Positions 2,318 through 63,226 of a DNA stretch of 64,000 nucleotides are shown piece after piece. Where the stretch lies: positions 1 to 64,000 of the forward strand of contig CACXUA010000007.1 in the NCBI GenBank assembly GCA_902770725.1, in the 5' to 3' direction. Within the stretch, counting starts at the first letter, position 1; each line of letters opens with the position of its first letter. This DNA is from an uncultured Bacteroidales bacterium (lineage in GTDB: Bacteria > Bacteroidota > Bacteroidia > Bacteroidales > Bacteroidaceae). Position numbers and translations under genes: made by a program. The notes below the pieces were generated by a model. It searched no databases. It saw nothing but the letters and a program-made list of their open reading frames with translations, and was not told the origin of the DNA.

Positions 2318-2423
2318 GGAGGACTGCAGTCCTCCGAAAATTTCCCAATAGGAGGACTCGAGTCCCACCACGGTGGGACTCGAGTTTTTCTGTGGTGGGA
2401 CGAGCGTCCTCCCACGGTGGGAC
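2318..2423. repeat. 22-bp palindrome-centred array A (5 units)
   Basis: Five units in a 22-bp register have centres at 2326-27 (GC), 2348-49 (AT), 2370-71 (AC), 2392-93 (GT) and 2414-15 (AC). The first is a perfect palindrome (GGAGGACT-GC-AGTCCTCC). The third is the core of a 13-bp-arm hairpin (2357-2384) followed by five T. Arms are drawn from GGAGGACT, GTCCCACC and their complements. The array starts just past the stop of the DUF6078 gene and ends about 240 bp before the GH127 ATG. Confidence 0.85.
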
Positions 2424-2427
2424 TGGC

Positions 2428-2862
2428 TTAGTCGCAGTAGTTGATTTGTTCTTCGTAACGGTCGAAGGGCAAATCCTCTGTGACACCAGCCTTGCGCAAG
2501 GCAGCCAAGATAATCTCTTGCTCCTTGGGTGAGAGGGATAGCGTGCCGTTTCGACGCTCATAATAGGCATTCCGGCCGAACTTCCCAATCAGGGCTCTCA
2601 TGAAGGTCTGGTACTGACCTGGGAACATCTTCCTCTGGAAACCCGTGAATCCATAAGCGTACCTGACGGGTTCGCTGGTGCGATAGAACTTGCATTTGGC
2701 TGTTTTCGTGCACTTCTTTGGGCTGATGAGTTGCAGGTAGGTCTCGCTCTCCTGAAGCTCAGCAAAAGCCAGTTGGTGCAGACAACTTGCTGCCATCGGG
2801 CAGTCCTCGTGCATGCAGACGGCAAAGTCCGCAGGCAGAGTGGTATAGTTTTTCCTTGCCAT
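2428..2862 (-). CDS. DUF6078 family protein
   Basis: A 144-residue cytosolic protein starting MARKNYTTLPADF, without signal peptide. It carries four cysteines in its N-terminal half (CMHEDC..., C around MAASC, then CTKTAKC), spaced like a metal- or cluster-binding site. The C-terminal part (SLSPKEQEIILAALRKAGV) looks like a small helical domain. The pattern fits DUF6078, a family I know only from Bacteroidales and whose function is unknown. The longer in-frame extension upstream is GH20 coding sequence read in another frame, so the ATG at 2862, 47 bp after the GH20 stop, was chosen. Array A begins right behind its stop codon. Confidence 0.7.
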   Translation of the reverse strand: MARKNYTTLPADFAVCMHEDCPMAASCLHQLAFAELQESETYLQLISPKKCTKTAKCKFYRTSEPVRYAYGFTGFQRKMFPGQYQTFMRALIGKFGRNAYYERRNGTLSLSPKEQEIILAALRKAGVTEDLPFDRYEEQINYCD

Positions 2863-3173
2863 ATTTGTATTGTATTTGTGGTTATCAACGGTTACGCTGC
2901 TGCCTTTCTCTATCTCCAGGCGCTGAAGTTTGTTATCTTGCTGCGGAAGTCGCCTGTCTCCTGCAGGGGGAAGACGAGGGTGCGCATGATCTTGTAGGTG
3001 CTCTTCTTGTTGTCGGTACTGGAAGAGATAGCCATCGCGACTGAAGCCAAGCATGCCCTTGATGGGGTCGGAGAGGTAGAACGTGCTTCGCTCGCTCGTG
3101 CAGAGCACAGTTCCGGGCTTCTCATCAGCCCATTCGATGGTGAACTCGACGGTGTAGGGATAGCCAATCTGGT

Positions 3174-3208
3174 GAATATTGAATATTGAATATTGAGGAT
3201 TGAAGATT
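3174..3208. repeat. Tandem heptamers inside the GH20 gene
   Basis: Five tandem 7-bp copies of GAATATT/GARGATT are read in frame as part of QIFNPQYSIFNIHQ. They interrupt an otherwise typical GH20 C-terminal region, which suggests that the repeat entered coding DNA. Confidence 0.75.
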
Positions 3209-4446
3209 TGTGTCTTTGGCTTCAAGTCGATATGGCTCACCATGCTCTTGCGGCCTATCTCGTCTGCGAGAGGTCCATCGCTGAGCATGCTGGCAAAGCT
3301 TGTCCATTCGGCATAGGCTGCATCTGTGGTGTCGCGAAGGGCGTGCCAGCACTTCTCGCTGACGACCTGCATGGCAGGCAGGATGCGATCGTGGCAGTCA
3401 CCAACGGAGATGCCGTTCTTGATGAAGTCGTTCCACAGCGCAAACATGCCGCCGTCGATGAGCGGGTCTTGATGGTCGAAGCGCTTGTTGCGAATGAGTG
3501 GATGCGGCAGGCACGATGTAGATGAAGGCATCGGGGATGGAAATCATGTGGAAGCCCTGCTTGTGCATCTCCGTAGGATCAGCATAACCATTGTACCAAA
3601 GGCTCATCAGCACACCGTCGGAAGGCACGGGTGTCACACCTTTTGCATGGGTCAGGCTTCCCCAGAAGACAGGTTGCTTGCCGTATTTCTTGACCTCGTC
3701 ACAGAGGTGCACAATGAGTTCACGGAAGCGCTCGCAGATGGCAGAGTCCTTGTTGCTGTACTCGTCCGTTCCGATATGGAAGCGGGGGCAGCAGAAGACA
3801 GGGTCGGGACCACCGAGGTACTCGGCATAGAGGCTGTCGAGGAAAGGAATGAGTTCAGGGTTCTCGAGGTCGAGGTGAGCATCGTCGTACTTCTTGGCTG
3901 CCAGCGAAGGACGGAAGTGCGTGAAGGCAAGGCTGTGGGCAGGCACGTCGAACTCAGGGATAATCTCCACACCCATCTTCTCGGCATAGCGGATGAGGTC
4001 GCGCATCTCCTGCTTCGAGTAGCTGCCGTCGATGGCGGTAAGGCCGGGGAAGAAGTCGCTCTCCATGCGGAAGGCAGCGTAGGTGTCGTCCCAACTGCTC
4101 TCAAATTGGTCAAAGAATCCATTGTCGTTGAGGTGCAGCTGGAGCGTGTTCATCTTGTAGTACGACATCACATTCACGAGCGAATAGAGGTAGCTCAACG
4201 GATAGAACTTGCGTCCCGCGTCAATCATGAATCCGCGAATGGCGTAGTCGGGCTTGTCGGTGATGGTGAGGCAAGGAAGCGTTCCCTTTGTAATCACGCC
4301 AGCATTGTTCTTCGCGAAGTGCGTGTCCTTCATCTGGAGCAACGTCTGCGCTCCCCACAAAGCTCCTTTAGGCGTGGAGGCTTGGACGGTGATGCCCTTC
4401 GGACTGATAGTCAAACGATAGCCTTCGTTGCCAAGAGACCCCCCGA

Positions 4447-4764: not shown

Positions 4765-7665
4765 TTATAGTTTCTTTCCACAGATTTGCCCGAGTTTGCA
4801 GTACTCGCAGACCTTAGTGTCTGTAGTACAAGTAAAGGGCTTGTCGGGGTTGAAGATGTCGGCAAGTATCTCTTGCAGACCTGCCTTAAAGGCTTCGGCA
4901 TGTTTGGCTCCAAAGTCATCAACCACAACTCCATCTATCTTGAGCGAGGGGGCGTAATCTGGTTTTGTAGCCTTAATAGGGAAGAAGAGGACGGGTTGGA
5001 TGGGCAAAGAGGATTCCTTTCTCTCCATCTCGGCCAAAGCATAGAGGAAGGTCTGCAGATAGTATCTTTCGTGTTTTGCTGTCAGCCCCACCACATTCTC
5101 CATCTTCACCTTCTCGGGTTCGTGGGTACCGGTCTTGTAATCAACAACACGAAGCCTGCCGTCCATCTCGTCAATGCGGTCAATGCGGCCACCGACCTTA
5201 ACTAAGATTGAAGATTGAAGATTGAAGATTGAAGAACGTTCTTCCTCTGCACCAATGATGCGGAAGGGCGTGTGCCGCACATCATAGTTTATGAGTTCCT
5301 GAAGATAGCGCAACAAGACATCGTGAGCGATGAGGGTGGTGCCCTTGTATTCATTGACCATTAACCATTGACCATTGACCATTGCTTTCTGGAAACGTTC
5401 CCGAATGACGGGCAAGCGGTCGAAATCTTCTGTTGGATGGAACCAAGAGACATCGAAGCTGACGTCGAGCATTGTTTCGAGTACCTTAGGCGCCTGAAGC
5501 ATGTCGGCAGTAATGGTGTCTGTGCCAAAACGTTGTTGCAGCCACTCGTAGAAGAACTCCGCAGTGTCGTGGAAGATGTTGCCGATGATGTCGGCCGAGA
5601 TGCCTTCCTCGGGGTCATCCTCTCGACGGATACGCAAGACATTGTTCAGGTAGAACTGCATCGGGCATTCCATGTAAGTGTTGATGGCAGAGGGACTGAG
5701 GGTGATGTGCTCGCCATCGGGCAGACTCTGTTCGTAGCGATGCCTGAGGTGTTGCATTACTTCGGATGTCTTCTCGACCACAATGGGCTGTGCCACCTTT
5801 GGCTTAGGCTCGCTTCTCAGCCAACGCGTCTTGATGGGAATGTTGGTCTCGGCAAGCATTTGTCTTAAGAAGCGCGACATCTCGTGCTGCACACCTTCGT
5901 TCGTACTCTCATTATAGACGCAGGTCAAGTGCTTGCAACGCTGGACAAGGCGGTAGAAGTAGTAGGCATAGACGGCAATGCGATGCTTTTGAGTCGTCAT
6001 GCCGAAAGCTTCGCGAAGAGTCTCTGGAATGAACGAGTTGGCATAAGCGCTTCGTGGCAGATTGCCTTCCTCAACAGAAAGCAGGAGGAGGTGCTCGAAG
6101 TCCAAGCAACGTGTCTCGAGCATTCCCATCATCTGCATTCCTCTGTCGGGCTCGCTATGGAAAGGAATCTTTGTGCTCGACATCATTTGTCGCAGCAAAC
6201 GTCGGAAAGTTCCTGGCAAGATGACGAGAGGATTATCTTTCTCTTGTATTAAGTCGCGAAGCAAGCATAGCGTCTTGTCAATGCGGAAGATGGTCTCGCT
6301 ATAGAGTTGCTCGAAGAGGTTGGGCTCTTCTATCATAGCATAATGACGGGCAATCTGTCGGACAAGCGTAAGAAGCCATTCGAGCAGTTCTTCGGTATTG
6401 CTGCCATGATAGACCAGACAATCTTCTTCGTTAAGTAGTTCGAAGAGAGGCTGCCTTCTCAGCGTCTGCACAAAAGGATAGCGGAAGCGTTTGCGGTTGG
6501 TATCATAGCCATCAATCTGCAACTTCAGCAAAGCCATGATGATGCCATAGACGGGTGTGTCGGCAATAGGGAAGCCCATCGTAACGTTCACCTCGTTTGC
6601 CGATTCGGGAATGGCATGAAGGACGGGCTGCATCAAAGCTTCGTTGCAAAGAACGACGGAAAGTGAAGAGTTAAGAGTTAAGAGTGAAGAGTTAAGAGTG
6701 GAGAGAGGATTCTTTGTTTTTAATTCTTCATTTATATAAGTATTGACATATCTTGCTGCGGCATTATCTGTAGAGCAGGCAATGAAGGTAACATCCTTCA
6801 GGTGGCTGAAGTTGTCGAACTCCTCGATATCGCTGATGGCGTTGGGGAAGTTGCGAAGGTTCTGCTTCATGAAGTAGCCTGCCTCGAAGTCTTTCTTCGG
6901 ATCGCAATAATAGATGTCGTAGTCCCAATAGAAACGAGCCTTGCCTTCTCGTTGGATGAGGCTCATCATGGCCTGTTCCACGTTGTTCAGGACATTGAAG
7001 CCAGCAAAGACGATGGCTCGCTTGCCCTCCAAGAGCTTCTGAACCATGCTATCGTCAGTCTGCATTTGTTCGATGACATGACGATAGAGTGCTCCTTCCC
7101 AAAGTTTGCCTTCGGAGAGAAGCCTCTCGTGCAAAAGTGTGTAAATCTCGAACATGTGTTCCCATGTTTTCAGGAACTTCTCTTGTAGTTTAGTGCTACT
7201 AGTCAAGGAGAAATGACCAAAGAAGCGTTTCAGCGTTTCTCGTTGATTGTCGTCGAGATAGTCGAGGTTCTTGAGACGCTCTTGGTCGGCGATGTTGGTG
7301 AAGATGGCTTGGGCGTTGGCAAGATGCTTGTCGATGTCGTCGAAATCTGCCATCAGCACTTCGCCCCAACTCCAGAACTCGTCGATGGTTTCGGTATAAT
7401 CAGCCCCAAGCACTTCCTGCATCACGCCATAAAGTTGGCAGATACATTCGAGCTGGTCTGCAATTTGAATGGAGGTGAGGCTTTGGAAGAGGTCGCCCAT
7501 CATGCAATAGCGGGGAGCCCAAACTGGTTTGTCGCTCAAAAGGGCAAACTCACGACTGAGGAACATACCAGCACGTTTGCCAGGGAAGACGACTGTCACA
7601 TCACGCATATCGTTCGAGAAATGCGCAAGCATATCGGCAGCGATTATATTGAGAAAACTCTTCAT
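4765..7665 (-). CDS. addB: AddB-like PD-(D/E)XK nuclease / inactive helicase subunit
   Basis: A 966-residue partner of the AddA-like protein encoded just upstream (20 bp gap). The N-terminal two thirds resemble the helicase-like part of AddB/RexB (FPGKRAGMFLSREFALL). The C-terminal third is a PD-(D/E)XK nuclease: LSPSAINTYMECPMQFYL, then GGRIDRID and VVDYKTGTH. The terminal cysteines (TC...VCEYCKLGQIC) with the earlier MEC Cys fit the 4Fe-4S clasp of AddB. The complex resects double-strand breaks for RecA loading. Three stretches of tandem heptamers (5205-5232, 5353-5380, 6660-6701) are read in frame as SSIFNLQSSI, MVNGQWLMVN and LNSSLLTLNSSLS, presumably in surface loops. The family is certain; the gene symbol follows the Firmicutes name. 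Confidence 0.88.
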   Translation of the reverse strand: MKSFLNIIAADMLAHFSNDMRDVTVVFPGKRAGMFLSREFALLSDKPVWAPRYCMMGDLFQSLTSIQIADQLECICQLYGVMQEVLGADYTETIDEFWSWGEVLMADFDDIDKHLANAQAIFTNIADQERLKNLDYLDDNQRETLKRFFGHFSLTSSTKLQEKFLKTWEHMFEIYTLLHERLLSEGKLWEGALYRHVIEQMQTDDSMVQKLLEGKRAIVFAGFNVLNNVEQAMMSLIQREGKARFYWDYDIYYCDPKKDFEAGYFMKQNLRNFPNAISDIEEFDNFSHLKDVTFIACSTDNAAARYVNTYINEELKTKNPLSTLNSSLLTLNSSLSVVLCNEALMQPVLHAIPESANEVNVTMGFPIADTPVYGIIMALLKLQIDGYDTNRKRFRYPFVQTLRRQPLFELLNEEDCLVYHGSNTEELLEWLLTLVRQIARHYAMIEEPNLFEQLYSETIFRIDKTLCLLRDLIQEKDNPLVILPGTFRRLLRQMMSSTKIPFHSEPDRGMQMMGMLETRCLDFEHLLLLSVEEGNLPRSAYANSFIPETLREAFGMTTQKHRIAVYAYYFYRLVQRCKHLTCVYNESTNEGVQHEMSRFLRQMLAETNIPIKTRWLRSEPKPKVAQPIVVEKTSEVMQHLRHRYEQSLPDGEHITLSPSAINTYMECPMQFYLNNVLRIRREDDPEEGISADIIGNIFHDTAEFFYEWLQQRFGTDTITADMLQAPKVLETMLDVSFDVSWFHPTEDFDRLPVIRERFQKAMVNGQWLMVNEYKGTTLIAHDVLLRYLQELINYDVRHTPFRIIGAEEERSSIFNLQSSILVKVGGRIDRIDEMDGRLRVVDYKTGTHEPEKVKMENVVGLTAKHERYYLQTFLYALAEMERKESSLPIQPVLFFPIKATKPDYAPSLKIDGVVVDDFGAKHAEAFKAGLQEILADIFNPDKPFTCTTDTKVCEYCKLGQICGKKL
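5205..5232. repeat. Tandem heptamer AGATTGA x4 within addB
   Basis: Four perfect copies of AGATTGA, translated on the minus strand as SSIFNLQSSI. The same word family recurs intergenically at 19304-19338. Confidence 0.85.
5353..5380. repeat. Tandem heptamer ATTGACC x4 within addB
   Basis: Four copies (one variant ATTAACC), translated as MVNGQWLMVN. A related array (GGTCAAT x4) lies in frame at 25517-25544 in the giant macroglobulin gene. Confidence 0.85.
6660..6701. repeat. Tandem heptamer AGAGTTA-type x6 within addB
   Basis: Six 7-bp copies (AGAGTTA, AGAGTGA, AGAGTGG and similar), read in frame as LSTLNSSLLTLNSSLS between helicase-like segments. Confidence 0.85.
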
Positions 7666-7670
7666 TCTTA

Positions 7671-7698
7671 ACTATGAACTATGGACTATGAACTATGA
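7671..7698. repeat. Tandem heptamer ACTATGA x4 spanning the addA stop
   Basis: Four copies lie between addA and addB. The addA stop codon and its last residues (VHSS-stop) are made of repeat sequence, so the repeat has replaced or extended the original 3' end. Confidence 0.85.
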
Positions 7699-10600
7699 AC
7701 TTGTACCGCTCTTTTCCTCATGACATACCAGATGTAGCCTTGCACGTTATGCTTCGGATACATTTGCTTCATGAGGTTCATGTATTCTTTTACCTGGTCG
7801 TAATAGAGGTGGTTGGGATGTCCGAACTTATAATCGATGACGGTAATGTTGCTGTCCTTCATCACGACTCTGTCAGGACGAAGCACTTGAGGCAGCCCCT
7901 TTTTCTTGTCAATGCTTGCAATGGCACATTCATTATAGATGATGTTATCCGGTTTGAACCATGATGCGATGAGAGGATTGCTGAAGCCTTCCTTGATGCT
8001 CTCGACGATGACATCCCAGTCCTTGTCTTCACCAACGATGCCTTCTTGACGAGCTTGCATGAGCATTTCGTCGAATTGGCCAACATCATTGATGCGGCTT
8101 AGCACTTCGTGCATACGTTTGCCAACCTCTCGCCCAGAAAGCTTGATGTCTGTTGTCTCTTGTCCATCCTCGTCGGCCTGTTCTTTGAGATAATCTTGAG
8201 CCAGATTACTCTGCTGGAAGTAGAGCGCAGGATTTCTTGTCACGACCTTCACGTCGATGGCATCTTTCTCTTGATGTTCGAGGCGCAGTCGATTCAGGTT
8301 CTTCTTGTCCTCATGCTTGACTTCTGTAAGAGGAGAGCCTGTCTCGTAATAGAAGACCTCTTCGCTCGTGTCATTCTCGTCATTGCTAAGTGTCGAGTAG
8401 ATGAGTTCGCCAGCGGTATTTGCTTTCGTCTTGCCCCAAACATATAGATTGGCGATGGCGCGTGTGAAAGCAACATAAAGCGTGTTGAGTGCATCGACGC
8501 GTCGTTCCAGGTGTTCCTCTTCATAATCGGGAGCAAAGACAGATGTCCTGACAGCTTTTGATTGGATGGAAATGGGCAAGGCACCAAGTTCATTGAAAGG
8601 AGTCTCGTTTGTCGAGCACCAAAGCACGTCGCCCTGTCTGTCCCTTTCGATGTCCCAATGACTGAAAGGCAACATGACGGTGTGGAACGCCAACCCTTTC
8701 GACTTATGGATGGTGATGATGCGAACGCCATTCCCTGTCGAACCGGTCACGGAACATTTGCTGAGCTTCTCGTCCCAAGCCGTGAGGAAGGTCTGAATGT
8801 CGGGAGCAGCAGCACTGCGAAGGTGGTTCTGCAGCTCGTCGAAGAAGGTCAGCGCATAGACATCTTCGTTCTCTATATTGCCAAGCGAGAAGATGCGCCA
8901 CAGCCTTTCTGTAAGCAGATAGAGTGGTAATTGCAACAAGTCGTCTTTGCCTTCTGTGAATTCCTTTGGCAAGACGTCATCGACCTCTTTCCTGGCAACA
9001 TCTTGGATGGTCGTCTCTTCCTTTCCGAGCACATCTCGAAGATAATGGAGCATCAGGTATTTCTCGGAAATCTTGTCTGTGTGTTGCTTGTCGATAAGCA
9101 ATCTCAGGGCTGCCACAATCATTTGAACGCAGGTTGAGGCTTCGAGCAGAAATGCTTCGTCGCTGACAAGATTGATGTTGGGAGCATAGAGGCTGAATCC
9201 GTCGATGAGTTGCCGAGCCATTAGGTTCGTTCGGACCAGAATGGCAATCTGGCCGAGGTCGAGACCGCCTTCCTGCAACCTTCGAATCTGCTCTGCCATA
9301 TCCACGACGGTATCTTGGATGTAATCGTCTGTCTCTTTATAGAGCTTCACCCTTACAAATCCTTTACCGTCTTTCTTTTTTGGCTTTTGCTCAACATCCG
9401 AATAGATGCTTTTCAGCTTGATGGGGGCATCGGGCTTTATATCGTCGAGCTTTTGAGCGGCGATGGGGAAGAAGGCATTGTTGAAATCGACAATGACTTG
9501 ATGGCTTCGGTGATTGATGTCGAGTGGCTTGGGTTTGATATTGAAGCGTCTGAGTTCGGGCTCGCTCTCTATGCCGTAGAGAATCTTCCAATCTCCGTTT
9601 CGCCAACGATAGATGCTTTGCTTGATGTCGCCAACCAACAAACCTTTCCCGCCTGAAGCGAGTTTCTCGAAGAGCAGTTTCTTGAAGTTCTCCCATTGCA
9701 TCAGACTGGTGTCCTGAAACTCGTCAATCATCACATTATTGATGAATGTACCAATCTTCTCGAAAATGAATGGCGCATCGCTTCCCTCAATCATTTTGCT
9801 GAGAAGGGCTGGGGTAGAGCTGAGCGTGAAACGACCTGCATCGCCTTCAATTTCGCGAGCTCGCTGGTCAATGTATTCCAAGAGCCGAAGCGGTCCAAGA
9901 TGCCGCAACGCCAAAGTTGCGGAGAGGTATTCTTTGCGGCGTTCCTCATAGAGGCTGACGAACTCAGCAAGACGAGCCTGCAAGTCGAAAGCGTTTGGAC
10001 CTTGAACCTTGAACCTTGAATTCAAGACAGACTTCCCCGGTCCTTCGCTTTCCATTTCACGAGCCTTCAAGAGGAACGAATAGAGGTTCTTTCCGTAACT
10101 GATTTGGCTGTAGTCGCTAATCTGGCTCATCACCTCGTCCACAGCTTCTTCCACCTCTTTCTTGGCACGATTCCTGATGGCCATCATCTTGTTCTTGAAG
10201 TTCTTGATGACCTCGGCATCGCTGATGCGCTTCAGTTCAGCCTCGCTTCTGCGCTGATAGTCCTCTTTGAAGATATTGGTGGCAAAGTCCTTGAGTGGCC
10301 CTGCAATGTCCCATTTGTCGCCGCTGTCCAATTGTTCGCGGATGTAGCCCAGCACCCAATCCTTCACATCATGCCTGCTATCCATCGTGTCGATGAGGCT
10401 GTCCACAGCACTCTCAATGATTTCGTCATGCGAAAGTTCCACTTGCAGGTTAGCAGCCAAGCCCAACTCGCGAGCCATGTTGCGGAGGATGCTCTGGAAG
10501 AACGAATCGATGGTCTCGACGCGGAAATGCGAGTAGTCACGCAGAATGGCAGTCAAGGCTTCTCCGGCTTGCATGCTGACTTGTTCTTTTGTAATGGGAG

Positions 10601-17400: not shown

Positions 17401-17703
17401 AAGCTTCTCAGAGAAGTCAGCCAACTTCAGCAGAGAAGTCAGTCAACTTCTTTTGTGGCGTGCTAAAACTCTACAGGAGGACTTGGGAAAATCCACAGCA
17501 GGATTTGATGAAATCCACAGCGGGATTTGGGGAAATCCACGTGAGGATTTTACAACATCGACGCGTCGAGTGAAAAAAAGGACGCGTCCCATTGGCGATA
17601 GGGACGTGTCGCGTTGGCAATAGGGACGTGTCCCTCTTGGGGGAAGGACGTGTCGTGTTGATATAGCTGACTTTTGCGGGTGTGCTGAACCTCAGCGGAG
17701 CAG
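17401..17703. repeat. 22-bp palindrome-centred array B (14 units)
   Basis: This is the longest array. It lies between divergent promoters. Units keep a 22-bp step with a single 21-bp step near 17575. The arms change gradually along it: AACTTCAG/GAGAAGTC units, then three AAATCCAC...GGATTT units (centres AG, AG, GT), a perfect TCGAC-GC-GTCGA palindrome (17558-17569), GGAC-GC-GTCC, and three units centred on GGAC-GT-GTC. Neighbouring units resemble each other more than distant ones. No ORF of note crosses it. Confidence 0.9.
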
Positions 17704-19303: not shown

Positions 19304-19338
19304 ATTGAAAATTGAAGATTGAAGATTGAAGATTGAAA
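19304..19338. repeat. Tandem heptamer ATTGAAG/ATTGAAA x5
   Basis: Five 7-bp copies begin at the base after the pepD stop codon. Three copies of the 9-mer TAATTCGTG follow at 19368-19394. Together they fill most of the 116-bp spacer before the next gene. Confidence 0.9.
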
Positions 19339-19419
19339 ATTTATAGTCGAGGGTCAAGAGTGAAGAATAATTCGTGTAATTCGTGTAATTCGTGGTTGAA
19401 TAATTCAAAGTTCGGTTCG

Positions 19420-22400
19420 ATGAAGAATTTGCTTGTACTGCTTGTCGTTTTGTGCGGCTGGGTTGGGGCTTTTGCCAAGAAGGCTGAGCCGGTGGTGGTG
19501 GCGTATGTGACGTCGTGGACGAGGGTGATGCCTGATCCGACGGTCATGACGCACATCAACTATGCGTTCGGACATGTCAATGAGCAGTTCAATGGTGTCC
19601 GCATCGATAACGAACAACGGCTTCGCGACATAGTCAGTCTGAAACGGAAGCAGCCCAAGTTGCGCGTCATGCTCAGCATTGGAGGCTGGGGCAGTGGTCG
19701 CTTCAGCGAGATGGCAGGGAGCGAAACGAATCGCAAAGCCTTCGCCAAAGATTGTCGCAGAGTCTGCAATGAGCTGGGGCTGGATGGCATCGACATCGAC
19801 TGGGAATATCCCACACAGAACAGTGCCGGCATCAGCGCTTCGCCAAACGACACGGAGAACTTCACCCTGTTGATGCGCGACCTCAGAGAGGCTCTGGGCA
19901 AGAAGCTCTGGCTCACTCTGGCCAGCGTGGGCAGCGCACAGTTCATCGACTTCAAGAGCTGCATCCAGTATATGGACTTCGTAAACGTCATGGCCTACGA
20001 CATGGGCAATGCACCCAAGCACCACTCGGCGCTCTACCGCTCGAAAATCGTCGGCTGGCTCTGTGCGTCGGATGCTGTGGAGGCCCATCGCAAGGCTGGT
20101 GTGCCCGACGAGAAGATTGTGCTGGGTATGCCTTTCTACGGTAGAGGCAAGAGCGGCGTGTATATGAAGTATCGCGACCGTGACAAGCACACTGAGACAG
20201 AGGTGTGGAGCAACACATCGAAGGCATCGTTCCTCGTTGATGAGGACGGCGAGTTGGCCATCGGCTTTGAGAGTCCGAGGTCGATAGCCATGAAGTGTGC
20301 CTACATCAAGGAGCAAGGCTTGCGAGGTGCGATGTATTGGGAATATGCCGACGACAACGAGCAGGGTGACCTGCAAAGGGCCGTTTGGCAAGGCGTCTTG
20401 CAAAGTGACAAGCAGCGCAGCAAGGCCAGTCAGAGAGCGGCACAGAGGTTGGCTTCCGTCCTGAAAGAGAATCAAAAGCGCGAAGACATCACACCCGATA
20501 GTTTCTTCCACGATTGGCGAGCACTCAAGGCAGAGATGCTGAGCGAGAAAGATGCGACGGCTCAGGCTATTTATCGTGCTGCAATGGCACATCTCCTCAT
20601 CGGAAATGCTTGGCGTTCGCAGAGCTTTGACAGCAAGACGAAGAGCCATCCCGACAGTATTCAGGAGTGGACGCACGAAGAATATCGTCGTCATTCAGCC
20701 CAGCTCTACAGTCAGGCTCTTCAGGATGTAGAGGCGCTCCATGCCGTCAAACTGCCCGACACAAAGCCTTTGACAGAGCAAGGCAAGGACGATGGCGTGT
20801 TCGGAAACGATGTGCTCCACCTCGTTTGGCAGACTTGTGTGAGCGACTTGACCGAACAGGAAAGGCGAAACCAGCGTGTGCCACGTTATGAGGATGTCAT
20901 CAATGTCTATCGCAGGCATGGACTGAGAGAGGCGACTTTGATGCTCAGGCTGGAGACCCTCTCTAACTCTCCCTTAAAGGGAGAGGATGAGGCAGCTTTG
21001 TTGAGGCTTCGCGACGAATATGCCGACTTGGATGCTTGTACTGAGGTCTATATGTTGCTGGCTGACTTGCCCGACAAATCGAATCAGGAGAAGGAAGACC
21101 TCTTGAATGCAGCGTTGAAGCGCTATCCCAGAAGTAGGCAAGCCAATGAGTTGCGGAACAGAATCGCTGAGTTGCGGCATCCCAGCTTCTCAGCCAAGTT
21201 CCGCCAAATGTATTATCCCGACAAGAACTACGACATCCCCCTCCAAATCAAGAATATGCAGTCGGGAAGCCTCTCCGTTTATCGTTTGCCAAAAGGTTTT
21301 GAGTTCAGCGATGAGGAAAAGGACGGCACGAAGGCTGAGCAAGTGAAACGTGCTGGCACTCTCGTCGAGACCCTGACCATTCCAATGCAAGGCGTGGAAG
21401 CCCTCGAAACAAAGAACGACACCTTGAAGTGGCACTCTCCTGGTTTCGGATGCTATGCCTTCATTCTGGATGGCACGACTCAGGAGAAGTTGGACAGGCA
21501 TGAACCACAAGTTTACCAGTTCGATGTGTCGGCTCTCACATTCATGTCCGTTGCTTTGCCCGACAATAAAGAGCGAGTGATGGTGACGGACGCTATGACG
21601 GGCGAACCGCAGCAAAGCGTCAAAGTCAGGTTCTATCGGAGAGAGAGGCAAGAATACACTTTGCTCGAAGAGACGTTGACCGACGAGCGTGGCATTGCCG
21701 AGATTGCTTGCGATGGCAAGCGGAACTATATCTATGTGGAGCTCTCGAAAGGTGAGGACAACGCTTTCGATAAGGAAAGTCTGGGCTGGTATTATATGCG
21801 GGACAACGACGACAAACTTGCCCACCATCTCAGTATCTATACCGACCGCAGCATTTATCGTCCAGGACAAACGGTCTATGTTGGCGGCATTGCTTATACC
21901 CAGAGTCACGACCAAGCACCAAAGGCAGAGGCTGGGGCAGAGTTTGCTCTCACACTCATTGATGCCAATGGTCAGGAAGTCATGAACCACACCGTAAAGA
22001 CCGACGAGTTCGGCACTTTGCAGGACAGCTTGCAGTTGCCCAAGACAGGTTTGCCAGGGCATTACAGCCTTCGTGTTGGCCAGAACTGGCACAGCTTCCG
22101 CGTCGAAGAGTATCGCAGACCAACCTTCGAAGTCAAGATGGACGAGGCTCCAGCCATCACGCTTCCAGTTGATAGCATCACCTTGACTGGCAAGGCTTTG
22201 ACATATAGTCAGTGGCCCGTTGCAAATGCTCGAGTTACGGGCTCTTATCAATGGCAGCAAAGTTGGTGGTGGAAGCGCATCAGTCCAAGCGAACAGCACA
22301 ACATCGATACGCTCTATACGGATGAAGAAGGCAAGTTCAGCGTTCGTATTCCAGTCTCGAAAGAGCTCACAAACGAAGACTTACGATGGGGCAGGGTGCT

Positions 22401-25400
22401 TCAGCTCTCGGTTGATGTGCTCAGCATGGAAGGCGAGACACAGCAGGGCAGCATTCGTGTTCCGCTTTGCAGCACGCCACTCAGGATGCAGGGAAATGTT
22501 CCAGAGCAGCAGAACCGCGAGTCACTCAAGCCGTGGCGCTTTGACCTCTATTCGAGCAACGACAAAACGGTTGAGGGCGATGTGCTTTGTATGCTCACTC
22601 AAGATGGCAAGGAAGTGAAGAACTTCTTCATTCCAGCAAACCGCGACACCATCCCCGAAGTGCTTCGAAGCCTTCCATCCGGTCATTACGAACTCAAGGC
22701 AAAAGCCGAAGTGAAGGGCGATACGGCATCTTATAAGGCAAGCTTCACCATCTTCTCCATCACCGATAAGCGTCTCATCGGCAAGCACGACCTTTGGCTT
22801 TACACGCCAAGCAATGTGATGTCGGCAGAGAAGCCAGCACGTTTCCAAGTCGGAACAACACTACCCAATGCTTGGATCTATTGCATCTTGACGGGTGAGA
22901 ACGGCATAGTTCGCGACACAATTCTCCATCTTTCCGATGAGGCAACGATGTTCGAAGTACCTTACGAAGAGCGATTCCGCCATCATCTTTCAGTCTCGTT
23001 GATGCTCATGAACGAAGGCGAGATGCGTCAAGAAACAATTGATTTCAGATTGGAACAGCCCGATACGAAGCTCACAATGCGTTGGGACACTTTCCGAGAC
23101 CAGTTGCAACCCGGTCAGAAAGAGCGTTGGAAACTGACTTTGACGCAACCTGATGGTAAGCCGGCTTCGGCAAATGTCATGGTTGGCATGTACGATGCTT
23201 CGCTCGATGCACTGTATCCTTACAATATGTATTTGGGCATTTATCGTGGCTGCAATCGTAGCGCGACACTTTATCCGAATTGCTTCGACAGGTTCACAAG
23301 GACACGCACGGCTTGGTTGGATATGCCTTTGCAGTACTTGTCAGCCGAAGGTTATGACTTTGCAAGGTGGAACGAGGAGTTCTTCCAGGGTATGAGAATG
23401 ACGAGAGGCGGCAAGACTATGCGTTTGCGTGGTGTGGGAGCAAACAGGTTGGAGGAGAGAGTCTTCGACATGGTGGAATCTCCGAGAATGGCTAAGGCGA
23501 CCAATCTTGCCTTCCAATCTGTTGATGCGGAAGAGAGTGCTGTGGGATTGAATATGGCAGCAAAGGAATTTACGGGCGAGGTGATGGCTGAAGAGGCTAA
23601 GGAGGCTGTGATTGAGGGCGATGCTTATGTGCGTTCCAATCTGTCCGAACTTGCCTTCTTCTATCCGCAATTAAGGACAGACAGTAAGGGTCAGACCTCG
23701 ATTGAGTTTACCCTTCCAGAAGGTCTTACTTCGTGGCATTTGCATGGTTTGGCTCATACAAAGGACATGATGACTGCAGAATGGCAAGAGACTGTTGTGG
23801 CGAAGAAGGAACTGATGGCAGAGTTGACGTTGCCAAGATTCTTGCGTAATGGTGATGAAGCCACGTTGACTGCAAGCATTCGAAATGCCTCGGAGAAGCA
23901 TCAGAAAGGCGAGGCCATCCTCGATGTCTATTGTGCTGAGGACAATTGGGGCGTCAAGCGAATGAAGGTGAAGTTCGACCTCGAACCAGGCAAAGAGGCA
24001 GTCTATCATATGCCACTCAAAGCAACCCTCGACCATCCTGTCCTCGCTGTTCAATGGATTGCGAAAGGCAAGGGCAGCAGCGATGGCGAAGTGCGTTACT
24101 TGCCAGTCCTCTCCGATATGCAGAACGTGACAGAGACGCGAACTTATCTGCTTCGAGGTGATACGACGATGACACTCAACCTCGATGGTCTCTTTGCAAA
24201 TGGTAATCCGAAAGCAAGGAACAAGACCTTGACCGTTGAGCATGTTGCAGAACCTATTTACCTTGCTTTGCAGGCTCTGCCATCGTTGACGGCTCCAGTT
24301 CACAACGATGTTCTCTCGGTTGCTACGGCTTATTATGGTGGTAGCGTAGCCTATCATATCGCTCATAAGTACCCGAATGTTCGCAAAGCAATCGATACTT
24401 GGGCAAAGGACGAGAGGTCATTGGCTTTGGAGAGTCCGCTCGTCAAGAACCAGCAACTGGCTGACATCCTCCTCAACGAGACGCCTTGGATGCTCGAAGC
24501 ACAGCAACAAAAGGCAAGTCGGCAACGTTTGGCTTCGCTCTTCGCTGAGATGGATCAGGAACAACGCAGGATGACAATGCTTTCAGCCCTTTCTGCAAGA
24601 CAAAGTCAAGACGGCTCTTTCGGTTGGTTCCCTGGTATGAGTGGTAGCGTTTGGATGACTTCGCAGGTCGCTTCGCTGCTGGTAAGGCTTGGAGCCATCA
24701 AGGGTGAATGGTCGATTCCAGAAGGTCAAATCCTCGACAAAGCGATGTCTTACCTCGAAAAAGATATGCATAAAGAGGTGGAAGCGTTGCGCAAAGAGAA
24801 GAATCCGACCTTGTCCCTCTCCGAACTTCGTTACCTATATATATATATAATGTATAGGAACAAACTGAACGACGATGCCCAATATCTCCTTTCTCTCTTG
24901 AAGAAGCAGGCCGAAGACCTCGACAGAGAACCTCGAGCCCTTGCTGCAATCGTGCTGAAGAGAGCAGGAGAGGAGAAGAAGGCACAGGCTTTGATGCCTC
25001 GCATCCACAAGTTGCTTCGTCATTCAGACGGAATGTATCTGGCTTATCCAGGAGGTAGCTTTACCAGTATTGACCGCAAAGTTCAGACTCATGTCAACTT
25101 GATGGAGGCCGTTCAGACTGTCGAACCGAAAGAGACGGATTTGCTCGCCAAGATGGCAGAATGGCTTATCCAGCAGAAACGAACGCAGGAATGGGAGCAG
25201 CCAATACAATCGGCTGATGCGATTTATGCGTTGATGCAGACCCCTCTCCATAGTGAAGGCGGAGCTTTTAGCGGTCAAGTCTCTTACAATAACCAAGTGA
25301 AAAAGCTCGAACCGCCCAAGCCTTTCACAGGTTATGTTCGCGAACGCATTGAATCCATCTCGAAGCCAAAGGAACTTCACATCGAGCAAAAGGCTGAAGG

Positions 25401-25872
25401 GACAGGCCTCGCTTGGGGTGCAGTCTTTGCTCAATACCAGCTTCCTGCTACAGAAGTGGAGCATCATCGCGAAGGTATGACCATTCGCAGAGAAATATCT
25501 ATAGAGAATAGGAATGGGTCAATGGTCAATGGTCAATGGTCAATGGGCGACCGCATCCACGTCCGTTACACGATTACTGCAGATAAAGATTACGAATATG
25601 TTTGTTTGAGGGCTCCTCGTCCTGCAGCAACAGAGCCAGCTCAGCAACTTTCGGGCTATCATTGGCAAAGCGGTTTGGGCTATTATCAAGCGATGCACGA
25701 TGCCAGCACGGAGTACTTCATGGACAGACTGCCAAGAGGAACCTATGTTATCGAAGAGGATTGGATTGTGAGTCGAGACGGCAACTTCCTCTTGCCTCCA
25801 GCCCGTCTGACTTGCCTTTATGCACCTGAATTCCAGTCGAATACTGCTGGCGAGAAGTTCAAGGTTAAGTGA
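19420..25872 (+). CDS. Giant GH18 / alpha-2-macroglobulin fusion protein
   Basis: A 2150-residue exported protein (signal peptide MKNLLVLLVVLCGWVGAFA; ATG 19420). Residues ~22-350 form a GH18 chitinase/endoglycosidase barrel: LSIGGWGSG, the catalytic DGIDIDWEYP (Glu129), VNVMAYDM and MYWEYADD. From about residue 370 on it is a bacterial alpha-2-macroglobulin family protein: helical N-terminal part, macroglobulin domains (TDRSIYRPGQTVYVGG), a LPEGLTSWHLHGLAHT segment and the thioester-domain-like alpha/alpha part. I see no CxEQ thioester motif, so covalent protease trapping is unlikely. Such proteins are thought to guard the envelope. Fusion to GH18 is unusual and could reflect loss of an intergenic segment. 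In-frame repeats lie at 20955-20988 and 25517-25544. Confidence 0.85.
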   Translation: MKNLLVLLVVLCGWVGAFAKKAEPVVVAYVTSWTRVMPDPTVMTHINYAFGHVNEQFNGVRIDNEQRLRDIVSLKRKQPKLRVMLSIGGWGSGRFSEMAGSETNRKAFAKDCRRVCNELGLDGIDIDWEYPTQNSAGISASPNDTENFTLLMRDLREALGKKLWLTLASVGSAQFIDFKSCIQYMDFVNVMAYDMGNAPKHHSALYRSKIVGWLCASDAVEAHRKAGVPDEKIVLGMPFYGRGKSGVYMKYRDRDKHTETEVWSNTSKASFLVDEDGELAIGFESPRSIAMKCAYIKEQGLRGAMYWEYADDNEQGDLQRAVWQGVLQSDKQRSKASQRAAQRLASVLKENQKREDITPDSFFHDWRALKAEMLSEKDATAQAIYRAAMAHLLIGNAWRSQSFDSKTKSHPDSIQEWTHEEYRRHSAQLYSQALQDVEALHAVKLPDTKPLTEQGKDDGVFGNDVLHLVWQTCVSDLTEQERRNQRVPRYEDVINVYRRHGLREATLMLRLETLSNSPLKGEDEAALLRLRDEYADLDACTEVYMLLADLPDKSNQEKEDLLNAALKRYPRSRQANELRNRIAELRHPSFSAKFRQMYYPDKNYDIPLQIKNMQSGSLSVYRLPKGFEFSDEEKDGTKAEQVKRAGTLVETLTIPMQGVEALETKNDTLKWHSPGFGCYAFILDGTTQEKLDRHEPQVYQFDVSALTFMSVALPDNKERVMVTDAMTGEPQQSVKVRFYRRERQEYTLLEETLTDERGIAEIACDGKRNYIYVELSKGEDNAFDKESLGWYYMRDNDDKLAHHLSIYTDRSIYRPGQTVYVGGIAYTQSHDQAPKAEAGAEFALTLIDANGQEVMNHTVKTDEFGTLQDSLQLPKTGLPGHYSLRVGQNWHSFRVEEYRRPTFEVKMDEAPAITLPVDSITLTGKALTYSQWPVANARVTGSYQWQQSWWWKRISPSEQHNIDTLYTDEEGKFSVRIPVSKELTNEDLRWGRVLQLSVDVLSMEGETQQGSIRVPLCSTPLRMQGNVPEQQNRESLKPWRFDLYSSNDKTVEGDVLCMLTQDGKEVKNFFIPANRDTIPEVLRSLPSGHYELKAKAEVKGDTASYKASFTIFSITDKRLIGKHDLWLYTPSNVMSAEKPARFQVGTTLPNAWIYCILTGENGIVRDTILHLSDEATMFEVPYEERFRHHLSVSLMLMNEGEMRQETIDFRLEQPDTKLTMRWDTFRDQLQPGQKERWKLTLTQPDGKPASANVMVGMYDASLDALYPYNMYLGIYRGCNRSATLYPNCFDRFTRTRTAWLDMPLQYLSAEGYDFARWNEEFFQGMRMTRGGKTMRLRGVGANRLEERVFDMVESPRMAKATNLAFQSVDAEESAVGLNMAAKEFTGEVMAEEAKEAVIEGDAYVRSNLSELAFFYPQLRTDSKGQTSIEFTLPEGLTSWHLHGLAHTKDMMTAEWQETVVAKKELMAELTLPRFLRNGDEATLTASIRNASEKHQKGEAILDVYCAEDNWGVKRMKVKFDLEPGKEAVYHMPLKATLDHPVLAVQWIAKGKGSSDGEVRYLPVLSDMQNVTETRTYLLRGDTTMTLNLDGLFANGNPKARNKTLTVEHVAEPIYLALQALPSLTAPVHNDVLSVATAYYGGSVAYHIAHKYPNVRKAIDTWAKDERSLALESPLVKNQQLADILLNETPWMLEAQQQKASRQRLASLFAEMDQEQRRMTMLSALSARQSQDGSFGWFPGMSGSVWMTSQVASLLVRLGAIKGEWSIPEGQILDKAMSYLEKDMHKEVEALRKEKNPTLSLSELRYLYIYIMYRNKLNDDAQYLLSLLKKQAEDLDREPRALAAIVLKRAGEEKKAQALMPRIHKLLRHSDGMYLAYPGGSFTSIDRKVQTHVNLMEAVQTVEPKETDLLAKMAEWLIQQKRTQEWEQPIQSADAIYALMQTPLHSEGGAFSGQVSYNNQVKKLEPPKPFTGYVRERIESISKPKELHIEQKAEGTGLAWGAVFAQYQLPATEVEHHREGMTIRREISIENRNGSMVNGQWSMGDRIHVRYTITADKDYEYVCLRAPRPAATEPAQQLSGYHWQSGLGYYQAMHDASTEYFMDRLPRGTYVIEEDWIVSRDGNFLLPPARLTCLYAPEFQSNTAGEKFKVK
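20955..20988. repeat. In-frame SPLKGE palindromic element
   Basis: CTCTCCCTTAAAGGGAGAG within the macroglobulin gene, translated TLSNSPLKGEDE. It belongs to the same element class as 4447-4460, 13461-13530 and 47305-47337. Confidence 0.8.
25517..25544. repeat. Tandem heptamer GGTCAAT x4, in frame
   Basis: Four perfect copies, translated GSMVNGQWSMG, near the C-terminus of the macroglobulin fusion. Confidence 0.85.
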
Positions 25873-25879
25873 CTCTGAA

Positions 25880-26007
25880 AACACGGCGTGCCGCGTTCTC
25901 AAACATGGTGTGCCGAGTTCTCAAAGATGGCGTGCCAAGTTCTCAAAGATGGCGTGCCATCTTTGTCAACTTAACACGTTAAGTTTTGCAACTTCACTAG
26001 CGTAGTT
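25880..26007. repeat. 22-bp palindrome-centred array C (6 units)
   Basis: It begins seven bases after a stop codon. Units: AACACGGC-GT-GCCGCGTT, AACATGGT-GT-GCCGAGTT, AAGATGGC-GT-GCCAAGTT, AAGATGGC-GT-GCCATCTT (perfect), AACTTAAC-AC-GTTAAGTT (perfect) and AACTTCAC-TA-GCGTAGTT. Linkers are CTCA, CTCA, CTCA, TGTC and TTGC. Left arms start with AA and right arms end with TT. A T-run follows the last unit. Confidence 0.92.
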
Positions 26008-32842: not shown

Positions 32843-32926
32843 AAGATGGCACGCCAAGTTCTTCAACTTAACGTGCCATCTTTGCGAACTTAACGTGCCA
32901 TCTTTGCCAACATGGCACGCCGAGTT
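32843..32926. repeat. 22-bp palindrome-centred array D (4 units)
   Basis: Units: AAGATGGC-AC-GCCAAGTT, AACTTAAC-GT-GCCATCTT twice, AACATGGC-AC-GCCGAGTT, with linkers CTTC, TGCG and TGCC and a closing T-run. The arms are the same words as in array C but combined differently. It lies between two converging genes, just after a terminator. Confidence 0.92.
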
Positions 32927-37273: not shown

Positions 37274-37379
37274 TATCCCCTATAGGGGAGTCTTCATTCC
37301 TCTATAGGGCGTTGCTCATTCCCCTATAGGGCGTTAGTCATTCCCCTATAGGGGAGTTCGCATTCCCCTATAAAGGAGT
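37274..37379. repeat. 22-bp palindrome-centred array E (5 units) in an operon leader
   Basis: Units have centres (AT) at 37282-83, 37304-05, 37326-27, 37348-49 and 37370-71. Most arms read ATTCCCCT...AGGGG or AGGGCGTT, giving CCCCTATAGGGG palindromes. With the minus promoter at 37392-37399 the array is in the 5' untranslated RNA, ending 12 bp before the ATG at 37261. Confidence 0.92.
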
Positions 37380-43823: not shown

Positions 43824-43929
43824 AACGTTGCACGTGATGTCTTCAAACTATCCACGTGAAGTTCCTCAACTATCCACGTGAAGTTTTCAAATTATCCACG
43901 TGAAGTTTTCAAACTATCCACGTGACGTT
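43824..43929. repeat. 22-bp palindrome-centred array F (5 units)
   Basis: Centres are all AC (43832-33, 43854-55, 43876-77, 43898-99, 43920-21). Arms are AACTATCC and GTGAAGTT, making CCACGTG cores; linkers are TTCA, CCTC, TTCA and TTCA. It is very homogeneous, so recently amplified or homogenised. The rest of the spacer to 44163 shows no ORF of note, only the promoter at 44091. Confidence 0.93.
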
Positions 43930-51009: not shown

Positions 51010-51137
51010 ACAAGGGCGTGCCATCATTATTATGACGGCACGCCTTTCTTTTAAACGCGGCGTGCCGAGTTGCCCGATTCGGCGTGCCGAGTTCACAAAC
51101 GTGGCACGCCATGTTTGCCAATTCGGCGTGCCGCGTT
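51010..51137. repeat. 22-bp palindrome-centred array G (6 units), terminator-like at its start
   Basis: Units: ACAAGGGC-GT-GCCATCAT, ATGACGGC-AC-GCCTTTCT, AACGCGGC-GT-GCCGAGTT, GATTCGGC-GT-GCCGAGTT, AACGTGGC-AC-GCCATGTT, AATTCGGC-GT-GCCGCGTT. Every step is 22 bp. The right half of unit 1 and left half of unit 2 pair as part of a GGCGTGCC...GGCACGCC hairpin followed by TTTCTTTT, which resembles a terminator for the zinc-ribbon gene. The array sits between converging genes. Confidence 0.92.
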
Positions 51138-54822: not shown

Positions 54823-55602
54823 ATGTATATGAGGAAGTACGTTTTGGACCTTCGAGTTACCTCTGCTGAGCAGCTGAGTGAACGATATCTCCTGCTTTCG
54901 GCGACCAATCCGGCAGGTCCTCTTCCGGAAATGAGTCCTGGACAGTTTGCCCAGCTCCGTATTGACGACAGCAAGGAGACGTTCCTGCGCCGTCCAATTA
55001 GCTTGCATCATGTTGATTATGAGCATAATGAGGTCAGTTTCTTGATACAAAAAGCTGGAAAGGGAACTGCGTCGCTTTGGCTGAAACAGCCAGGTTCGAC
55101 GTTGAACGTCATTTTGCCTCTTGGCAAAGGCTTCACGATGCCCACATCGACGGAACAGAAGTTCTTGCTCGTTGGAGGCGGTGTTGGCGTTGCTCCCCTC
55201 CTGTTCATGGGAGAAGCGATGCTGCGGATGGGCGTTCGACCCACGTTCCTGCTTGGTGCTCGCAGTAAGTCTGACCTGCTATTGCTCGACAAGTACCGTG
55301 CTTTGGGGACTGTTTATGTGACCACGGAAGACGGTTCGGAAGGCGAAAAAGGCTTCGTTACGCAGCACACTGTTTTGCGGCGAGAAAAGTTCGATAACAT
55401 TGCTGTGTGCGGCCCTAAGCCAATGATGTTGGCAATGGCTTCCTATGCAAAACATGCAGGAATCTTGTGTGAGGTGAGTCTCGAAAACGTGATGGCTTGC
55501 GGCTTGGGCGCTTGCCTTTGCTGCGTCGAAAACACGAAAGACGGAAATGTATGTGTCTGCAAGGAAGGACCTGTGTTCGATGTTGAGAAACTGAATTGGT
55601 GA
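54823..55602 (+). CDS. pyrK: Dihydroorotate dehydrogenase electron transfer subunit
   Basis: A 259-residue iron-sulfur flavoprotein. The FAD domain contains FLRRPISLH, the NAD domain VGGGVGVAPLLFMG, and the C-terminus the 2Fe-2S ligands MACGLGACLCC...CVCKEGP. It passes electrons from class 1B PyrD to NAD. ATG 54823 and ATG 54829 are both possible; the second gives MRKYVLDL, and the repeat element encodes the first two codons of the longer form. pyrD follows after array H. Confidence 0.95.
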   Translation: MYMRKYVLDLRVTSAEQLSERYLLLSATNPAGPLPEMSPGQFAQLRIDDSKETFLRRPISLHHVDYEHNEVSFLIQKAGKGTASLWLKQPGSTLNVILPLGKGFTMPTSTEQKFLLVGGGVGVAPLLFMGEAMLRMGVRPTFLLGARSKSDLLLLDKYRALGTVYVTTEDGSEGEKGFVTQHTVLRREKFDNIAVCGPKPMMLAMASYAKHAGILCEVSLENVMACGLGACLCCVENTKDGNVCVCKEGPVFDVEKLNW

Positions 55603-55611
55603 AGTCTCAAA

Positions 55612-55717
55612 ACGTGGCGTAGTTAAATTGCAAAGTTAACGTGTTAAGTTGGCAAAGTTAACGTGTTAAAATGATAAAGTTTACGTGTTAAGTTTGGCAA
55701 CGACACTAGGGTGGTTG
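55612..55717. repeat. 22-bp palindrome-centred array H (5 units) between pyrK and pyrD
   Basis: Units: AACGTGGC-GT-AGTTAAAT, AAGTTAAC-GT-GTTAAGTT, AAGTTAAC-GT-GTTAAAAT, AAGTTTAC-GT-GTTAAGTT, AACGACAC-TA-GGGTGGTT. Linkers: TGCA, GGCA, GATA, TGGC. The last unit recalls the final AACTTCAC-TA-GCGTAGTT of array C. It lies inside what should be one pyr operon. Confidence 0.92.
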
Positions 55718-55745: not shown

Positions 55746-56654
55746 ATGGCAGATATGCGAGTGAAAATAGCAGGCTTGGAGCTGACGAATCCGGTGCTTA
55801 CGGCGAGCGGAACTTTTGGCTATGGCATAGAGTATCAAGACTTTATCGACCTGAGTCAGCTGGGAGGTGTCATCGTCAAGGGCACTACCCTCGAGCCTCG
55901 AGAAGGCAATCCTTATCCCAGAATGGCCGAGACGGCACAAGGAATGCTGAATTGTGTTGGCCTTCAGAATAAGGGAGTGGATTATTTCTGCCAGCATATC
56001 TACCCTCAGATAAAGGACATCAAGACCAACATGATTGTGAATGTGTCTGGTAACAGTCCTGAGGATTATGCCGAATGTGCTGCCCGTATCAATGAACTCG
56101 ATTGCATTCCAGCAATAGAGCTTAACATCTCCTGCCCGAACGTCAAACATGGCGGAATGGCTTTCGGCACAACGACCGAAGAAGCGTCGAGTGTCGTAAA
56201 GGCTGTTAGGGAGGCCTACAAGAAGACGCTCATCGTGAAGCTCTCGCCAAATGTTACAAGCATTACGGACATTGCTCTTGCCGTACAAGATGCTGGAGCT
56301 GATGCAGTTAGCCTCATAAACACTTTGATGGGAATGGCCATCGACATAGAAAAGCGTAAACGCATCTTGAGTATCGGAACGGGAGGGTTAAGTGGCCCAT
56401 GCATCAAGCCAGTTGCTTTGCGAATGGTTTACCAGGTGGCTCATGCGGTTCAAGTGCCTGTTATCGGTCTTGGAGGCATTAGCTGTGCGAAGGATGCAAT
56501 AGAGTTCCTGTTGGCGGGGGCTTCTGCGATAGAGATTGGAACAGCCAATTTCCTTGATCCGACCATTAGTGTCAAGGTTGCTCAGGGCATTGACGAGTAC
56601 CTTGAGAAACATGGTTTCAAGAGCGTTAAAGAGATAATTGGAATCTGCGAATAA
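55746..56654 (+). CDS. pyrD: Dihydroorotate dehydrogenase, class 1B catalytic subunit
   Basis: A 302-residue FMN TIM barrel oxidising dihydroorotate to orotate. [20 protein letters not shown], the catalytic loop [13 protein letters not shown] (Cys, marking class 1), [28 protein letters not shown] and [27 protein letters not shown] are present. The NAD-linked 1B type needs PyrK, encoded 143 bp upstream. trmD follows after 12 bp. Confidence 0.97.
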
Positions 56655-60435: not shown

Positions 60436-60453
60436 CATTTAACTCCCAATATA

Positions 60454-63098: not shown

Positions 63099-63226
63099 GC
63101 TTTGGCGTGGCTTTTTTCCTGATGCGGCGTGAGGCCTTTACAAAATCGACACGTCGATTTCATAAAATCATCACGTCGATTTTGTAAAACCCTCGTGTCA
63201 ACTTTGCCTTTTTGATGTGGAAAAAA
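63099..63226. repeat. 22-bp palindrome-centred array I (about 6 units)
   Basis: Centres at 63107-08 (GT), 63129-30 (GT), 63151-52 (AC), 63173-74 (AC), 63195-96 (GT) and 63217-18 (GT). The third is perfect (AAATCGAC-AC-GTCGATTT); the fourth is AAATCATC-AC-GTCGATTT; the outer ones have diverged. The rest of the 510-bp spacer (62996-63508) between converging genes shows no gene or clear terminator. Confidence 0.85.

Follow-up and report, generated by a model that had tools for sequence, protein, structure and literature searches.

Intergenic arrays with a 22-bp step and species-specific words in an uncultured Bacteroidales bacterium and its relatives

The gaps between genes of an uncultured Bacteroidales bacterium, and of its relatives, hold arrays of short units that follow one another at a step of 22 bp. 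Observed features comprise the step itself, symmetry in most arrays, a position outside genes, words specific to each species, rewriting of words in place and, against the nearest species, a slower change than in other intergenic DNA. We tentatively read these arrays as intergenic platforms, mostly of 4-6 units of 22 bp, likely bound by a symmetric, putative DNA-binding protein, in which the step and mostly the dyad symmetry are kept and the words are rewritten by species.

A preliminary description of the window, the whole stretch of 64,000 nucleotides analyzed here, had assigned about 56 units of a 22-bp array type to nine spacers. Arrays were confirmed in all nine (Table 1), and 55 whole units were counted on the 22-bp grid of that description. 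When lags 8-60 were scanned for regions of 40-base windows with at least 70% self-identity, lag 22 gave 7 regions and lag 44 gave 7, their union being all nine spacers, and every other lag gave 0-3. In 447 kb of the same genome there were 60 regions at lag 22, 45 at lag 44, 8 at lag 14 and at most 3 at each of the remaining lags from 10 to 60; this set comprised the window and 20 further stretches, 18 of which, but not the window itself, were chosen around known arrays. Five Markov-shuffled sets of 447 kb yielded no region at lags 21, 22, 23 and 44. The identity threshold for a region varied between scans (0.60 to 0.72), and counts are comparable only inside one scan. The single 21-bp step reported in the longest array proved real: units downstream of it lie one base earlier, with 6, 5, 7 and 4 paired positions in the shifted register versus 3, 2, 3 and 2. 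The array between pyrK and pyrD had been placed one base off, at 55612, where 2, 0, 2, 2 and 3 of 8 positions pair; its best register begins at the position given in Table 1.

Table 1. Positions of 22-bp arrays and of tandem 7-bp repeats in the window
Feature	Positions	Strand	Description
22-bp array	2318..2423	.	5 units, GTCCCACCACGGTGGGAC type
22-bp array	17401..17703	.	the longest; on the grid of the preliminary description, 13 whole units; at least 3 types of word; a single 21-bp step near 17572
22-bp array	25880..26007	.	6 units, mostly main family; begins 7 bases past a stop codon (gene end at 25872); orthologous array in L036
22-bp array	32843..32926	.	4 units, first two oppositely oriented
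22-bp array	37274..37379	.	5 units, TCCCCTATAGGGGA type, between divergent genes
22-bp array	43824..43929	.	5 units, AACTATCCACGTGAAGTT type
22-bp array	51010..51137	.	6 units, main family
22-bp array	55611..55716	.	5 units, between pyrK (54823-55602) and pyrD (55746-56654)
22-bp array	63099..63226	.	6 units, AAATCGACACGTCGATTT type, between convergent genes
Tandem 7-bp repeats	5204-5235, 5352-5384, 6658-6705, 7670-7701, 9995-10020, 25517-25546, 60389-60436		

The tandem 7-bp repeats form a second repeat class in the window, with different words at different places and several tracts inside long open frames; they are candidate phase-variation tracts. Positions 19333-25872 are a single open frame of 2179 aa with a glycosyl hydrolase 18 domain and bacterial alpha-2-macroglobulin domains.

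We examined the unit grammar in 977 units from 196 arrays, drawn from the own genome and from the loci of a contig scan of relatives, arrays with fewer than 3 units or with weak frame scores being left out. Columns A1, A2, C3, C8, G11, G16, T17 and T18 were each 73-93% one base. The main word family has the fixed frame AAC-N4-C(GT/AC)G-N4-GTT, in which only N4 varies, and a linker that is weakly KGCM; the N4 words (TTAA, ATGG, TTCA, GACA and others) form a loose vocabulary and are combined into hybrid units. The grammar proposed earlier, an 18-nt word plus a 4-nt linker, fits this dominant family, but for the centre, described as mostly AC, GT, AT or GC, 757 of the 977 units have GT (within CGTG) or AC (within CACG). 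The sequence had likewise been called free; words do vary, but the arms of the main family are not free, N4 alone being variable within the frame. The idea of a universal C-R-Y-G centre was abandoned once the other word families had been inspected. Consecutive main-family units no more than 120 bp apart gave 301 distances (66 in the own genome and 235 in other species, the latter checked for duplicates, with none found), and every one was a multiple of 22; these include all 19 cases in which the two units agree at 2 or fewer of the 8 core positions.

An exact two-unit pattern of the main family matched 47 times in the own genome. Among 139 genomes of the genus it was present in 23, with no match in a backwards control; of the 61 genomes in the family sample the own one alone had it, and of 16 genomes of other families none did. 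In a contig collection the main-family pattern was found in at least 113 stretches; the 80 matches listed all came from Bacteroidales, Bacteroidaceae, Prevotellaceae or Prevotella records, and the hosts named in their titles were ruminants (yak, roe deer, water buffalo, goat, sheep, reindeer). Viral contigs held no stretch with this pattern, and a phage element was rejected on that ground.

Symmetry was tested in arrays of at least 66 bp against controls with permuted columns. Even-centred dyads scored 5.29 of 8 in 58 arrays of the own genome and 5.48 of 8 in 12 arrays of the genus, odd-centred dyads about 4.05 and the controls 3.90-3.98. The dyad reached p<=0.05 in 39 of the 58 and in 8 of the 12 arrays; the other 19 arrays of the own genome were not significantly symmetric, and a word family of genome G163, CTTTGACACCGACATG, does not look symmetric. 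Covariation tests that set the register by symmetry were left out, being biased by the choice of register. Within the main family, core complementarity (of 4) was 1.96 within a unit, 1.95 across the linker and 1.93 with the next unit, and left arms of neighbours were more alike (2.72) than left and right arms (1.96). Left and right cores matched at 2.04 within arrays versus 1.68 between arrays (0/500), and shuffling the right arms within arrays lowered the core match from 1.958 to 1.823 (0/1000 over all species; in the own-genome subset the drop was not significant, 282/1000). The left/right core agreement is local and not tied to one unit.

The number of units per array peaked at four. Among the 196 arrays, 73 had 4 units, 43 five, 35 six and 21 three, so that 151 fell between 4 and 6. 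Intergenic cluster spans of the main family, at the loosest threshold, numbered 23 with one unit, 5 with two, 8 with three, 23 with four, 7 with five, 4 with six and 2 with seven. Those 23 single units compare with 20 in a Markov control, and the 10 and 8 single units at two stricter thresholds with 1 and 0. A weaker array neighbour accompanied 16 of the 23 at the loosest threshold and all at the stricter ones, leaving 7, 0 and 0 truly alone. In G208, 7 of 11 arrays had exactly 4 units by script; by eye 2 more had 4 and one had 4-5, and one array had been missed by the script. Arrays of G162 and G163 were often longer than 4 units.

The same step recurred with other words in relatives. Lag-22 regions were present in 8 of 20 same-genus genomes, sampled at up to 20 kb each, and their words were others, for example AAGACGCGCGTCTT in G001 or AACTCCCCTAGGCGAGTT in G002. 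Over 434 kb of the genus, lag 22 ranked first with 18 regions, followed by lag 21 with 12; lags 14 and 21 were raised too in the genus. In longer samples, lag 22 was the commonest lag in each of G122 (13 regions), G126 (10, with lag 14 near at 8), G012 (11), G052 (7) and G016 (4). Other genera of the family (400 kb, 13 genomes) gave 10 lag-22 regions in 6 genomes, the next, unrelated lags giving 3, and other families of the order (535 kb, 16 genomes) gave 2. The preliminary description had staked its claim on an excess of 22-bp periodicity in relatives, and an excess of this periodicity was found in the genus and the family. Its further statement, that geometry is kept and sequence changes, was borne out between loci and far more between species.

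Four word families besides the main one were confined to their own species in the genomes searched. In G208, TTTTCATGAAAA occurred at 81 places with at most 3 mismatches, and a related pattern was found in none of 7 other genomes, two of them sisters of G208. By hand count, GTYCCANGCNNTGGRAC lay at 12 loci in G162, YGACCTAGGTCG at 12 loci in G159 and CTTTGACACCGACATG at 21 loci in G163, each with no match in two sisters of the genome concerned. Different words also stood in one register within single arrays, as in L169, L180, L183 and the array at 17401 of the window. Two large gene gaps in L182 (12569-14415 and 15775-17037) were full of several 22-bp families, with an interspersed word near AGTTCGCACC among them.

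The junction between pyrK and pyrD offered a view of how arrays change at one place. An array was present there in 16 of the best 30 of 128 matching genomes; 5 of these shared words (G000, the own genome, with G114, G005, G082 and G053) and 11 had other words (G080, G116, G086, G068, G008, G134, G020, G059, G146, G024 and G012). The other 14 of the best 30 loci had no array, and their junction was short or overlapping. Sorted by flank identity, an array was present in 14 of 14 sites at 86% or above, 8 of 9 at 80-86%, 9 of 19 at 74-80% and none of 6 below, where 31 of the 48 comparisons are the pyrK-pyrD junction, one (in the highest class) is the window itself and two rows at 74-80% are the same DNA. 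This count covers sites with both flanks aligned; outside it, L143 has no array after the ortholog of the left-hand gene of the 51010 site, at 86-89% identity over its one aligned flank.

Inner units were rewritten in place, with the step and the edges unchanged, and conservation of one word is excluded by this rewriting. In a pair of orthologous arrays, L172 (8501-8599) and L078, words on both arms had changed together and the linker GCAATTGC was unchanged. Against G005, the nearest species, change per site was 0.057 in arrays, 0.086 in other intergenic DNA (2143 sites) and 0.130 at third codon positions (9057 sites), the slower array change resting on 36 changes in 632 sites within blastn-alignable regions. 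The only two gaps in arrays measured 22 bases each, and the 10 gaps in other intergenic DNA measured 1-4 bases. In more distant pairs, where the alignment of rewritten words is unsure, arrays changed more than other aligned intergenic DNA, at 0.154 versus 0.116 (85-92% identity) and 0.319 versus 0.204 (72-84%), and 1 of 6 and 0 of 8 array gaps, respectively, were of 22 bases. This faster change and these non-22 gaps count against simple conservation.

None of 57 arrays of the own genome lay in coding sequence. Over all loci, 234 arrays, counted without weak-frame units and duplicate arrays, divided into 118 in co-directional gaps, 50 in convergent and 44 in divergent gaps, 7 in called coding sequence and 15 not placed; genes were called by a custom hexamer script, not a standard caller, and the script missed a DUF6078 gene at 2431-3531 supported by Pfam. 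Gaps of 60-120 bp held arrays in 2 of 45 co-directional, 0 of 8 convergent and 0 of 6 divergent cases; at 120-250 bp the counts were 14 of 35, 5 of 10 and 0 of 13, and above 250 bp they were 14 of 33, 5 of 8 and 11 of 21. Co-directional arrays started within 25 bases of the upstream stop codon in 67 of 118 cases and ended within 25 bases of the next start in 12 of 118. We read this hugging of the stop codon, with the promoter side left free, as promoter avoidance plus compaction, and a promoter function was rejected on placement. On the chromosome, at least 36 TTTTCATGAAAA loci of replicon C1 of G208, counted by hand among the matches listed, crowded near coordinate 0 (Rayleigh p about 1e-5). 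The 12 loci of G162 had their mean near dnaA (p 0.07), the 12 of G159 clustered far from dnaA (p 0.02) and the 21 of G163 showed no clustering (p 0.35). Clustering near the replication origin was thus rejected as a general rule, since G159 clusters elsewhere and G163 not at all.

How could a step outlive its words? In the platform reading, copies of a symmetric protein would line up next to each other on a single face of the helix, each unit serving as one binding site. Neighbouring proteins would touch, because 22 bp brings a site back to nearly the same face of B-DNA, and about four touching copies may be needed. Words could drift because spacing would matter more than any single word, and copying between units might then spread a new word. 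Such platforms would have a structural role (nucleoid or insulation) and not a transcriptional one, because convergent, divergent and co-directional gaps all hold arrays. The scarcity of lone units, the unrelated words in a common register and the whole-unit gaps between near species would fit proteins that touch. A symmetric protein reading two helical turns had been suggested earlier and still seems to us the best reading. The co-occurring partner that was to be looked for did not emerge among the HU-HIG proteins, which all 61 genomes in the family sample have and which give no lead, or among Y1 transposases (1 of 12 genomes). That not every family is symmetric counts against a platform, and one sequence-specific protein is hard to reconcile with the presence of several word families in a genome.

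Nearly as likely is a non-functional satellite held by copying alone, spread and homogenized by slippage and gene conversion, its palindromes perfected by template switching and its 22 bp kept by descent and because odd-length units pair badly. Such a satellite would explain homogenization, gain and loss: inner units are homogenized and edge units diverged, left arms of neighbours resemble each other more than left and right arms do, word families are bound to species and sit at many loci, arrays come and go as flank identity falls (the array-less L143 site included), and array gaps in distant pairs are mostly not of 22 bases. It accounts less well for a period common to word families that are unrelated in sequence and come from several genera, for unrelated words sharing one register, for unit numbers that peak at 4 with no falling curve, and for arrays that change more slowly than other intergenic DNA against the nearest species.

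Selection on base pairing, in RNA hairpins at transcript 3' ends or in DNA cruciforms whose arms need complementarity only, is improbable by our estimate. RNA folding was better than in shuffles in 8 of 9 array pieces (z -2.2 to -8.5), an excess that any symmetric tandem repeat would be expected to give. The start of co-directional arrays just past stop codons, the joint change of both arms in L078 and L172, the better match of left and right cores within arrays and its fall after the right-arm shuffle also point toward pairing. Yet the sense strand had no G-T excess (188 G-T versus 277 A-C; 78 versus 99 in a smaller set), the centre stood on it in both orientations (209 CGTG, 172 CACG), 44 of 212 placed arrays lay between divergent genes, and the fixed frame of the main family would be superfluous for pairing alone. 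The T content past the last unit was weak, at 0.67, 0.55, then 0.21, 0.30 and 0.21 in 33 co-directional arrays, and an intrinsic terminator was rejected, although a few arrays, such as those at 25880 and 32843, do end in T-runs. The units had been pictured as small hairpins; with no G-T excess, and with core complementarity no higher inside a unit than across the linker or with the next unit, that picture was not supported. RNA pairing is disfavoured because of the missing G-T excess, the mixed orientation and the divergent sites, and with conservation of one word excluded as well, spacing remains. Least probable of all, and in our judgement very unlikely, are ordinary operators of several unrelated regulators that stand in tandem by chance: a genome does carry several word families, and dyad 18-mers resemble operators, but arrays follow stop codons, lie between convergent genes and inside the pyrK-pyrD pair, avoid short divergent gaps and keep one step common to different word families.

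A bolder extension of the platform reading, which we hold to be rather unlikely, is a chromatin-like code written into the gene gaps of the whole family (probably Prevotellaceae): spacing and symmetry would be inherited, and sequence would not. A conserved or fast-evolving protein would hold a two-turn lattice, and each species would rewrite the words, as in centromeric satellites. Repeat families are defined by sequence, and these arrays are defined by their beat. Should a protein lattice underlie the beat, chromosomes in a large group of animal-associated bacteria would have a layer of organization that does not depend on sequence; otherwise the arrays would be a satellite whose ruler is unexplained. 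The pyrK-pyrD junction in 30 species is a natural experiment in this respect, with arrays present, absent and rewritten at one place.

The earlier statement that no element of this kind had been described agrees with our comparison: no named family was matched. Rfam 15 gave no match in the window above the gathering score, and 22-bp arrays were not described in the open-access literature, including passages of PMC5771137, PMC4596501 and PMC8040213. According to PMC4596501, BrickBuilt of Porphyromonas gingivalis has a 23-nt unit with one consensus, carried in a MITE with terminal repeats like those of the IS5 family. It is alike in being tandemly repeated, with a unit of similar length, in an organism that is related, whereas the arrays here have 22 bp, many words and a range of several genera. 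The 301 of 301 neighbour distances that are multiples of 22 do not fit a 23-nt unit. Array flanks inspected by eye had no obvious common end such as the terminal inverted repeats of BrickBuilt. A CRISPR array was rejected as well, since the units abut with 4-nt linkers and without long unique spacers.

REP/BIME elements, which go with RAYT (Y1) transposases, are short intergenic palindromes in many copies, with one conserved palindrome consensus and a GTAG-type foot. The arrays share the short intergenic palindromes in many copies, but differ in having several abutting units, a fixed 22-bp step and species-bound words. A Y1 transposase (PF01797) was found in 1 of 12 genomes searched, G122 only (E 7.8e-5), and none was found in the own genome, which is 80.6% complete. 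With this transposase missing in 11 of the 12, words that vary within and between genomes and no fixed linker, REP/BIME with RAYT was rejected. Plasmid iterons, for example those of R6K, are 22-bp direct repeats two helical turns apart that bind one protein each. The arrays resemble them as direct repeats at that distance; iterons, however, lie at one origin with one word, and the arrays are spread over dozens of chromosomal gaps and use many words. In eukaryotic satellite DNA the unit length is kept, the sequence is replaced between species and arrays are homogenized within. All three traits recur here, but the arrays are bacterial, short (about four to six units) and dispersed over compact intergenic gaps.
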